Shown here: piece after piece, positions 9,356 to 43,261 of the stretch
Layout of the letters: every line of letters begins with the position of its first letter
Position numbering within the stretch: position 1 is the first letter of the stretch
Assembly: GCF_005503695.1 (NCBI RefSeq)
Contig: NZ_SCMU01000015.1
Coordinates: 1 to 64,000 of the forward strand
Reading direction: 5' to 3'
DNA length: 64,000 nt
Source of the DNA: Sphingopyxis sp. 2PD
GTDB lineage: Bacteria > Pseudomonadota > Alphaproteobacteria > Sphingomonadales > Sphingomonadaceae
Translations under genes and position numbers: made by a program
The notes under the pieces: generated by a model
What the model saw: only the letters and a program-made list of their open reading frames with translations
Told to the model about the DNA's origin: nothing
Database searches by the model: none

Positions 9356-9435
9356 CCGTTCGCATCGAGCGAAGTCGAGATGCCCATCGGCCTTGGGCGC
9401 CCTCGGCGTGTCTCGACTTCGCTCGACACGAACGG
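9356..9435. repeat. paired inverted repeat, family A copy 1
   Basis: Two inverted arms of about 27 nt (TTCGCATCGAGCGAAGTCGAG and its complement-like partner) flank a short unique centre. It lies between the divergent lepB and pgi genes. The same element recurs at 12439, 25718, 47251 and 55714. It creates false coding extensions with the peptide VERSRD. Confidence 0.85.
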
Positions 9436-35111: not shown

Positions 35112-36638
35112 ATGGTCAAACATGCGCTCAGCGTAACCCGGCAGGCCGACTTTGCGGCCTGGTATCAGGACGTCATTGCCGAAGCCGATCTCGCCGAGGA
35201 ATCGGGCGTGCGCGGCTGTATGGTGATCAAGCCGTGGGGTTATGGCATCTGGGAACGCATCCAGACGGTGATGGACGCGGCGATCAAGGATGCCGGGGTC
35301 CAGAACTGCTATTTCCCCTTGTTCATACCCTTGAGCTTCTTTGAGAAGGAAGCCGATCATGTCGATGGTTTCGCAAAGGAAATGGCGGTCGTTACCCATC
35401 ACCGCCTGATCGGCGACGGCAAGGGGAAGCTGGTCCCCGACCCCGAGGCAAAGCTCGAAGAACCGCTGATCGTTCGCCCCACGTCGGAGACGGTGATCGG
35501 CGCCGCGATGAGCCGTTGGGTACAGAGCTGGCGCGACCTGCCGCTGAAGGTCAATCAATGGGCCAATGTCGTGCGCTGGGAGATGCGCACGCGCATGTTC
35601 CTGCGCACCAGCGAGTTCCTGTGGCAGGAGGGGCATACCGCGCACGCCGACAAGGACGATGCGATGGCGGAAACCTTGCGCGCGCTCGAAATGTACCGTG
35701 CCTTTGCCGAGGATGTGCTGGCGATGCCGGTCGTCGCGGGCGAAAAGCCCGAGAATGAGCGCTTCCCGGGCGCGGTCGCGACCTATTCGATCGAGGCGAT
35801 GATGCAGGACGGCAAGGCCTTGCAGGCGGGCACCTCGCATTACCTCGGTACCGGCTTCGCCGAGGCCGCGGGCATTCGGTATCAGGATAAGGACGGCGGT
35901 CATTCGCTGTGCCACACGACGAGCTGGGGCGTGTCGACGCGCATGATCGGCGGCGTGATCATGACGCACGGTGACGATGATGGCCTGCGCTGTCCGCCGC
36001 GCATCGCGCCGCACCAGATCGTTATCGTGCCGATGCTGCGCGACAATGACGAGGACGCCGCGATCCTCGATTATTGCCGCGACCTCGAGGCGCAGCTGAA
36101 AGCGCTCGACGCGTTCCGCGAACCGGTGCGGGTACTGCTCGATACCGGCGCGAACAAGGCGCAGACCAAACGCTGGGGCTGGGTCAAGAAGGGCGCACCG
36201 ATCATCGTCGAGGTCGGCCCGCGCGACGTTGCGGGCGGCAATGTGGCGATCATCCGCCGCGACCGGCTGTACAAGGATGACGGCAAGCTCAATTCGGCGT
36301 TCATCGCGAAGGGCGATTTCGTCGCCGATGCGGTCGCAACGCTCGCCGACATCCAGACGAGCCTCCACGCCGAGGCGAAACAGCGCCTCGACGCGAATAT
36401 CCGCCGCGACGTCACCGACCTCGCCGCGCATTTTGCGGGCGACGAAAAGTTCGTCGGCTGGGCCGAAGTGCAATGGTCGCGCCCGACCGGCGCGGCGCTC
36501 GACAAGATCGTCGAGCAACTCAAGTCGCTGAAGCTCACGATGCGCAACACGCCGATGGACGCCGCGCCCGCCGACGGTGCCTGCTTCTTCACTGGCGAAC
36601 CGGCGGTCGAGCGGGTGCTGATCGGGCGGACCTACTGA
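35112..36638 (+). CDS. proS: proline--tRNA ligase, archaeal/eukaryotic-type
   Basis: A class II aminoacyl-tRNA synthetase of 508 residues. IKPWGYGIWERIQ and the FPLFIPLSFF motif-1 region, then RPTSETVIG and the TRMFLRTSEFLWQEGHTAHA motif 2, define the core; the C-terminus ends with an extra domain and a terminal Tyr. This is the archaeal/eukaryotic-like (type 3) form with no bacterial editing insert, not the alphaproteobacterial short form. Start at ATG 35112; an earlier frame start at 35061 overlaps the phaR stop but lacks homology-like sequence. Confidence 0.93.
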   Translation: MVKHALSVTRQADFAAWYQDVIAEADLAEESGVRGCMVIKPWGYGIWERIQTVMDAAIKDAGVQNCYFPLFIPLSFFEKEADHVDGFAKEMAVVTHHRLIGDGKGKLVPDPEAKLEEPLIVRPTSETVIGAAMSRWVQSWRDLPLKVNQWANVVRWEMRTRMFLRTSEFLWQEGHTAHADKDDAMAETLRALEMYRAFAEDVLAMPVVAGEKPENERFPGAVATYSIEAMMQDGKALQAGTSHYLGTGFAEAAGIRYQDKDGGHSLCHTTSWGVSTRMIGGVIMTHGDDDGLRCPPRIAPHQIVIVPMLRDNDEDAAILDYCRDLEAQLKALDAFREPVRVLLDTGANKAQTKRWGWVKKGAPIIVEVGPRDVAGGNVAIIRRDRLYKDDGKLNSAFIAKGDFVADAVATLADIQTSLHAEAKQRLDANIRRDVTDLAAHFAGDEKFVGWAEVQWSRPTGAALDKIVEQLKSLKLTMRNTPMDAAPADGACFFTGEPAVERVLIGRTY

Positions 36639-36658
36639 TTTAGGCGTTGCGAGATTTG

Positions 36659-36686
36659 GTTCGCACAAAGACACAAAGACACGAAG
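36659..36686. repeat. left inverted repeat flanking the GxxExxY gene
   Basis: A 28-nt arm made of the direct unit ACACAAAG/ACACGAAG (GTTCGCACAAAGACACA...). Its inverse at 37077-37104 matches at 26 of 28 positions. Confidence 0.85.
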
Positions 36687-36696
36687 GGGGCAGGGC

Positions 36697-37121
36697 ATGG
36701 ATATCGAACAGCTCTGCACTATCGTCGTCGATTGCGGCTTCAAACTTCATCAGGATATTGGCCCCGGCTTACTGGAGTCGGCCTACGAAGCGATGTTGGC
36801 GGCCAAACTGTGTGCATTAGGACTAAAAGTCGATCGGCAGGTACCGATCGACTTGACCTACGACGGCATTGCCATTCCCAACGCCTTTCGGATCGATTTG
36901 CTGGTCGATGATAGGGGCTTGATAGAGCTCAAGTCGAGCGAGACAACCGCCCCGGTTCATGCGAAGCAGGTTATTACTTATTTGAGATTAATGGGTTTGA
37001 CCCACGGATTTGTCATGAACTTCGGTACCCCGACATTTAAGGAAGGCGTCCGGCGCCTGCTGAATGACCCGACGCTCTTCGTGTCTTCGTGTCTTCGTGC
37101 GAACAAACTGCGCGACGTCGG

Positions 37122-37125
<4 letters not shown>
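36697..37125 (+). CDS. GxxExxY family protein (PD-(D/E)XK-like)
   Basis: A 142-residue protein. The family motif is GLLESAY near residue 28. The nuclease-like core is FRIDLLVDDRGLIELKSSE (D..ExK, near residue 68-86), followed by QVITYLRLMG. GxxExxY proteins have this fold but no settled function. The last 13 residues are encoded by the right inverted repeat (37077-37104). The stop overlaps the rnr start (ATGA). Base composition is more AT-rich than the neighbours. It looks like an inserted cassette between proS and rnr. Confidence 0.88.
37077..37104. repeat. right inverted repeat flanking the GxxExxY gene
   Basis: A 28-nt arm, CTTCGTGTCTTCGTGTCTTC followed by GTGCGAAC, that is the inverse of the left arm at 36659-36686 with two mismatches. 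It lies inside the 3' end of the coding sequence. Confidence 0.85.
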
Positions 37126-42733: not shown

Positions 42734-43261
42734 ATGCCCGCGAGGGGCCAAAGCCCCTCTCCCCTTGCGGGAGAGGGGTTGGGGAGTGGGGTCCGCGCCG
42801 CGTCTGCGGCGCATAAGACAGTAACCGACATTCTCGCCCGCAAGGCACTTTTGCTCGAACGCGCCCGCGCGATGCGGTCGAGCCCGACCGACGCCGAACG
42901 TCGGCTCTGGTCAATCCTGCGCGCGAAGCGGTTGGCCGACCTGCGATGGCGGCGGCAGGTCATCATCGACGATCTCTACATCGCCGACTTTGTCTGTTTC
43001 GAGCATCGATTGATTGTGGAGGCGGACGGTGGGCAGCATTCAGAAAGCCCCTATGATGCCGACCGCGATTCCTATCTGGCAGCGCAAGGCTTTCGTATTC
43101 TGCGCTTCTGGAACAACGACGTGCTGAACAACTGCGACGGTATTGCCGAAGCAATATTGCACGCCATCGATTCTTCTGGCGCGCAGACGCGCGCCGACCC
43201 CACACCCCAACCCCTCTCCCGCAAGGGGAGAGGGGCTTTTCAAGGAGCCCATAATGGCTGA
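42734..43261 (+). CDS. DUF559 family endonuclease-like protein in a repeat-bounded cassette
   Basis: A 175-residue frame. The core (residues about 48-150) has PTDAERRLWSILRAKRL, WRRQVIIDDLYIADFV and LIVEADGGQH, the DUF559/Vsr-like fold with the D..ExDG..H acidic set. The N- and C-terminal ~25 residues are translated from the inverted repeats 42750-42812 and 43179-43239 (SPSPLAGEGLG; PQPLSRKGRG). The true start may lie inside, for example at the later Met near residue 47. It overlaps lpd by 8 nt. Function of the family is not established. Confidence 0.82.
   Translation: MPARGQSPSPLAGEGLGSGVRAASAAHKTVTDILARKALLLERARAMRSSPTDAERRLWSILRAKRLADLRWRRQVIIDDLYIADFVCFEHRLIVEADGGQHSESPYDADRDSYLAAQGFRILRFWNNDVLNNCDGIAEAILHAIDSSGAQTRADPTPQPLSRKGRGAFQGAHNG
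42750..42812. repeat. left inverted repeat of the DUF559 cassette
   Basis: A 63-nt arm starting AAAGCCCCTCTCCCC. It holds an internal hairpin with CCCCTCTCCC and GGGAGAGGGG. The inverse of the right arm matches the first 35 nt exactly and about 43 of the first 44. Confidence 0.88.
43179..43239. repeat. right inverted repeat of the DUF559 cassette
   Basis: A 61-nt arm ending AGAGGGGCTTT. It is the inverse of the left arm at 42750-42812 and ends a few bases before the lpd ribosome site AAGGAG (43242-43247). Confidence 0.88.

Follow-up and report, generated by a model that had tools for sequence, protein, structure and literature searches.

The 64,000-nt stretch of Sphingopyxis sp. 2PD analyzed here (contig NZ_SCMU01000015.1, positions 1 to 64,000; hereafter the window) belongs to a genome of 3.58 Mb (G000) and carries, between proS and rnr, a small GxxExxY gene enclosed by inverted arrays of short tandem units. 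The gene occupies positions 36697-37125 of the forward strand and encodes a protein of 142 aa, which matches the GxxExxY profile TIGR04256 (E 4e-32, 111 bits, curated cut-off 35) and the PDDEXK_3 nuclease profile PF13366 (E 6e-32, 110.9 bits, cut-off 22). PF13366 is the only family matched by this protein, and its gene is the only one between the arms; it is free-standing and intergenic, being located in neither an intron nor an intein. The left junction, with the proS stop codon, spans positions 36636-36658 and is gone or reduced to 0-9 nt in relatives with an empty site. The right junction (37108-37125) leads into rnr, whose start shares the tetranucleotide ATGA (37122-37125) with the GxxExxY stop codon. 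Neither junction is assigned to a strand.

The inverted arms (36656-36695 on the forward strand and 37068-37107 on the reverse strand) are 83% complementary across 40 nt. Each is composed of three copies of the octamer CACRAAGN with TTCGC at the outer end, the units being located at 36664-36686 in the left arm and at 37077-37099 in the right one. The arms are not a product of chance, since the three-unit pattern has 30 matches in the whole genome, as compared with 0 for the reversed control pattern. A preliminary description of this DNA, made from the sequence alone, had reported 28-nt arms matching at 26 of 28 positions around the gene, and a GxxExxY stop overlapping the rnr start; both statements were confirmed, the arm cores being located at 36659-36686 and 37077-37104. 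It had also stated that the right arm is translated as the C-terminus of the protein. This holds for the window copy, where the arm encodes LFVSSCLRANKLRDVG, but not as a general rule, because in the second GxxExxY copy of the same genome (L001) the stop codon precedes the arm. The arms of the family as a whole are made up of tandem C[AG]C[AG][AG]AGN units and a short type-specific terminus, with two inverted arms per element. The unit varies between loci (CACGAAG, CGCAAAG, CGCGGAG, CGCAGAG, CGCCAAG, CACAGAT, CACGGAA, and others), whereas both arms of one element agree, the agreement between left and right arms being higher within an element than across elements.

Judged by predicted fold and conserved residues, the protein appears to be an intact small PD-(D/E)XK nuclease resembling RecB, Cas4, and lambda exonuclease, in line with the PD-(D/E)XK-like character assigned to it earlier. 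Residues E27 (of GxxExxY), D67, E77-x-K79, and Q91 are invariant in 14 aligned proteins, and E27, D67, E77, and K79 are the putative catalytic residues. The AlphaFold model has a pLDDT (predicted local distance difference test) score of 88.5; its nearest solved folds in Foldseek, namely Cas4, LHK-Exo, MGME1, and lambda exonuclease, are weak matches (best E 2.6e-3), and a sequence search for a homologue with a solved structure returned none. The gene is under strong purifying selection, with a ratio of non-synonymous to synonymous substitution rates (dN/dS) of 0.02-0.10. The nuclease fold, along with weak matches to Cas4b and reverse transcriptase-associated PDDEXK models (E 0.02-0.04), would also suit a nuclease of the defence or toxin-like kind, with the arms as regulatory or recombination scars. 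We regard this as very improbable, because no good match to curated defence models was obtained and the dispersed, type-matched, gene-less elements described below would be left unexplained. A known defence system was rejected given sub-threshold matches only, and so was a phage origin, as a pattern search of 2.9 million viral contigs yielded one relative and the PHROG match was weak.

The second GxxExxY gene of the genome encodes a protein 59% identical to that of the window and has inverted octamer arrays on both sides, with another outer terminus (TATCTCAC). Apart from these two genes, the 30 matches of the three-unit pattern make up approximately a dozen short gene-less inverted pairs, mostly 138-167 nt long and belonging to both terminus types. 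The arms hardly vary from pair to pair and the interiors are unrelated to each other, as expected of non-autonomous elements. The proS-rnr element is the gene-carrying member of a small repeat-element family, most copies of which are gene-less and about 140-175 nt long.

The elements are intergenic, often directly past stop codons. Such placement, and the expected pairing of the arms across the whole gene transcript, would be compatible with a function at the RNA level, the arms acting at the ends of genes as terminators or stabilising hairpins, the protein being an RNA-directed nuclease or regulator of arm-bearing transcripts, and spread a secondary matter. This seems rather unlikely: the predicted fold resembles DNA nucleases, and insertion better fits the type-specific termini and the empty sites. 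No Rfam family reached the gathering score in five sampled loci, and a known RNA element was rejected on this basis.

The proS-rnr junction was compared in 24 genomes with proS within reach of rnr. The junctions were mapped by BLAST pieces, since MAFFT alone was unreliable across empty and filled sites. The junction is empty (0-9 nt) in four genomes (L071, L083, L089, and L093), whereas five genomes, including that of the window, have a gene element, which in one case (L068) contains a truncated gene with both arms kept. Four more (L078, L079, L085, and L092) contain a gene-less element of 172-175 nt with arms CGCGGAGN or CGCGAAGN, and the remaining ones have other sequence between proS and rnr. 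A GxxExxY gene is present at this junction in three further genomes outside this set. The preliminary description had suggested looking for empty and filled junctions among relatives, and named a gene fixed in all of them, or repeats scattered at random away from GxxExxY genes, as evidence against its proposal. Empty, gene-filled, and short-element versions were all found; the junction is mobile and the distribution of the gene patchy, and the repeats located elsewhere form paired short elements matched in type to the resident gene.

Other sites vary in a similar manner. The closest genome, G016, shares several elements with G000 but lacks element L114, the site of which is also empty in three other genomes. 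At the site of the second GxxExxY gene, which is empty in three genomes, the convergent neighbors share overlapping stop codons (CTAA) when the site is empty and have separate stops when it is filled; this slot holds an ATPase-like gene, as judged by reading the sequence, in G016 and G024 (L213, L224). At the L098 site, G066 has no insert, G000 and G057 have a palindromic repeat of another kind, and G063 has two nested elements; one further site has a type A element in G000 and a nested type B element in G016. Nested elements, in which an inner array pair lies within an outer pair of another subtype, were also observed in L097, L100, L124, and L222; it looks as if insertion prefers existing hairpins, or as if the pair is a composite element. 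In one orthologous short element shared by G000 and G016 (L118 1019-1181 and L101 1049-1210), the interior is inverted and the flanks are collinear.

The proteins encoded at the proS-rnr junction do not follow the rnr tree. For G066 and the window genome, rnr is 90% identical and the junction GxxExxY 67%, whereas for G019 and G063 the respective values are 80 and 93%; hence, the slot was filled more than once or swapped between lineages. Such independent occupation, as well as the presence of different elements at other slots in different species, agrees with a homing-like process, in which the nuclease would cut element-free DNA or an existing array or hairpin and repair would copy the element-bearing homologue. 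Spread of the gene would then be chiefly from strain to strain at fixed sites, with the short elements as decayed or recombinant copies. Homing endonucleases of the PD-(D/E)XK type are known, e.g., I-Ssp6803I, and share with GxxExxY a small nuclease of the same superfamily tied to selfish spread; the GxxExxY gene differs in being outside introns and inteins, in being flanked by repeat arms, and in being accompanied by short elements dispersed in the genome. Among the rivals, homing-like exchange at fixed slots is the strongest, and it may operate alongside the process proposed below; as the principal explanation we consider it unlikely, since it leaves unaccounted for the dozen short elements that are dispersed in the genome with unrelated interiors and match the resident gene in type.

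Arms of a similar kind flank nearly all other GxxExxY genes examined, as the preliminary description had anticipated. Both arms are present at 60 of the 64 GxxExxY genes of the genus. A wider set of 81 loci, consisting of 80 loci from the genome collection and one viral contig, represents mostly other phyla and other sphingomonads, and spans sphingomonads, Verrucomicrobia, Chloroflexi, Bacteroidota, Planctomycetes, desulfobacteria, geobacteria, cyanobacteria, and others. Inverted arms scoring at least 18 were found in 70 of these loci, as opposed to 4 for control windows placed off the gene in the same loci. Arms were also present in 25 of 30 further proteobacterial loci. The gene-array unit recurs across many bacterial phyla.

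The association of genes and arrays at the level of genomes was tested within the genus and within Proteobacteria. Among 80 genomes of the genus, the median number of array matches is 9.5 in those with the gene versus 0 in those without it (p=1.6e-7). In 299 proteobacterial genomes, arrays were found in 35 of the 37 that carry the gene, as compared with 22 of the 262 that lack it (Fisher p=3.6e-28, uncorrected for relatedness). The association is specific to arm type: the median number of CGCGGAG matches equals 15.5 in genomes with a CGCGGAG-armed gene, 2 in genomes with other types only, and 0 in genomes without the gene, and the arm type of the gene predicts the abundant element type of the same genome (permutation over genomes, p=2e-4). 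On a tree of the genus proteins, built from their cores after trimming of the arm-encoded tail, the arm type (unit and terminus) requires 10 changes, the minimum being 8 and the shuffled mean 39.8. Co-resident gene copies (45-62% identical) always differ in arm type, and each genome thus has at most one gene per type. The larger point, which goes beyond the preliminary description, is that the nuclease is paired in trans with a population of gene-less elements dispersed in the genome.

An unlinked transposase that moves the arrays, with GxxExxY as mere cargo, would account for the lack of PF13366 in some array-rich genomes, but we find it quite improbable, as arms accompany almost every GxxExxY gene, arm type follows the protein tree, and a Y1/RAYT-type transposase is absent from G000 and from many array-rich genomes, such as G016, G063, and G064. 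For G000, a passenger of a RAYT-type transposase was ruled out by the lack of a Y1_Tnp (PF01797) gene.

The closest parallel is the REPIN/RAYT system, characterized by a single gene per type in each genome and by intergenic gene-less inverted-repeat elements, which are dispersed and more numerous when the gene is present (PMC8049555, PMC3116915). GxxExxY genomes likewise contain dispersed gene-less inverted-repeat elements that bear the repeats of the gene itself, have one copy per arm type (co-resident copies being at most 62% identical), and carry more of these elements than genomes lacking the gene. The differences are that GxxExxY is a predicted PD-(D/E)XK nuclease, whereas RAYT is an HUH/Y1 tyrosine transposase, a class to which GxxExxY does not belong; that the arms are tandem octamer arrays, whereas REPINs are built of single repetitive extragenic palindromic (REP) sequences; that the arms enclose the gene itself; and that the occupying gene does not simply track the host tree. 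Because this pattern of one conserved gene per type, dispersed gene-less elements, and more elements with the gene is that of RAYT and REPIN, with a different enzyme and no Y1 transposase, we propose GxxExxY as the cutter of arrays of its own type. We consider it fairly probable that this system resembles REPIN/RAYT and that a PD-(D/E)XK nuclease, rather than an HUH transposase, recognizes own-type arrays and drives their spread. Most likely, the protein would recognize these arrays, perhaps as hairpins in single-stranded DNA; cutting there would lead to same-type elements being copied or inserted elsewhere, with the joining step left to host replication and repair. Binding, cutting, the hairpin form, and the protein as the cause of movement are what we infer. 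Genome comparison, in turn, demonstrates the coupling of genes and arrays and the long-term dispersal of the latter: the gene and its arrays form a unit of general occurrence, their types match both in cis and in trans, elements have been inserted at intergenic sites that were once empty, and each genome has one lineage of each type, with the gene under purifying selection.

Several observations weigh against this proposal. Some array-rich genomes have no PF13366 gene (G217 with 133 matches, G267, G116, and G373), possibly owing to gene loss or another partner protein, and some gene-carrying genomes have no arrays. No fixed-length target-site duplication was established from the empty-site comparisons, the overlaps at two sites being a 4-nt CTAA at one and an imperfect 16-18 nt at the other. 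The matches of the model to solved structures are weak, as given above. Finally, hitch-hiking could in part be the reason why gene and arms evolve together, though it leaves the trans matching of gene and element type unexplained.

Two further known systems share some of these features. Insertion sequences with miniature inverted-repeat transposable elements (MITEs) also have terminal inverted repeats, autonomous-like and gene-less members, and empty sites; the GxxExxY elements differ from them in having no DDE, HUH, or recombinase transposase between the arms and no multiplication of gene copies within a genome, and no fixed target duplication was seen among them. A 2024 review of prokaryotic MITEs (PMC10969869) does not mention nuclease-linked elements. 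The 23S rRNA intervening sequences with an S23/four-helix-bundle open reading frame (PMC4990558) are likewise short selfish inserts with a small reading frame, and many such genes in the sampled Proteobacteria also have inverted tandem-unit arms, whereas their protein is unrelated and has no nuclease fold, and their repeat units differ. In other proteobacteria, four-helix-bundle genes (PF05635; L291, L294, L298, L299, L301, L303, L309, L310, and others) were observed with inverted tandem arrays of TAGGCAG, AGTGAGT, and GATGAGG, an architecture like that of the GxxExxY elements around a protein that is not a nuclease.

The window itself contains another nuclease-like gene paired with terminal repeats, which bears out the earlier view of the GxxExxY element as an independent case. 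This DUF559 gene (PF04480, E 4e-37) is located at 42734-43261 of the forward strand, and its arms (42750-42798 and 43191-43239), probably the first pair alluded to in that account, are 49 nt long, inverted, 96% complementary, and translated as the two ends of the protein. Two further dispersed palindromic families of the window have no assigned gene, namely CCGTTCGTGTCGAGCGAAGTCGAGACACG (positions 9356, 12439, 25718, 47236, and 55714) and CCCTGAGCCTGTCGAAGGGCGC (49484 and 53061).

No functional description of GxxExxY, PF13366, TIGR04256, or the arm repeats was found in the open-access literature, subscription papers, preprints, and database notes being outside the scope of the search, and the system looks undescribed. 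With some hesitation, as we rate it slightly below an even chance, we suggest that GxxExxY and its inverted tandem arrays may form a distinct cross-phylum class of mobile repeats, in which a small PD-(D/E)XK nuclease alone, without a transposase or recombinase, would disperse non-autonomous elements of matching type; the DUF559 and four-helix-bundle genes may represent further classes of this kind. The proposal gives a widespread nuclease family without an assigned function a testable one and probably a substrate, and it accounts for intergenic repeats of a kind common in many phyla. It also raises the question of why bacteria retain one copy per type under strong selection. If the nuclease alone indeed drives the spread, miniature mobile elements of bacteria would arise by another enzymatic route in addition to those of the DDE and HUH transposases.
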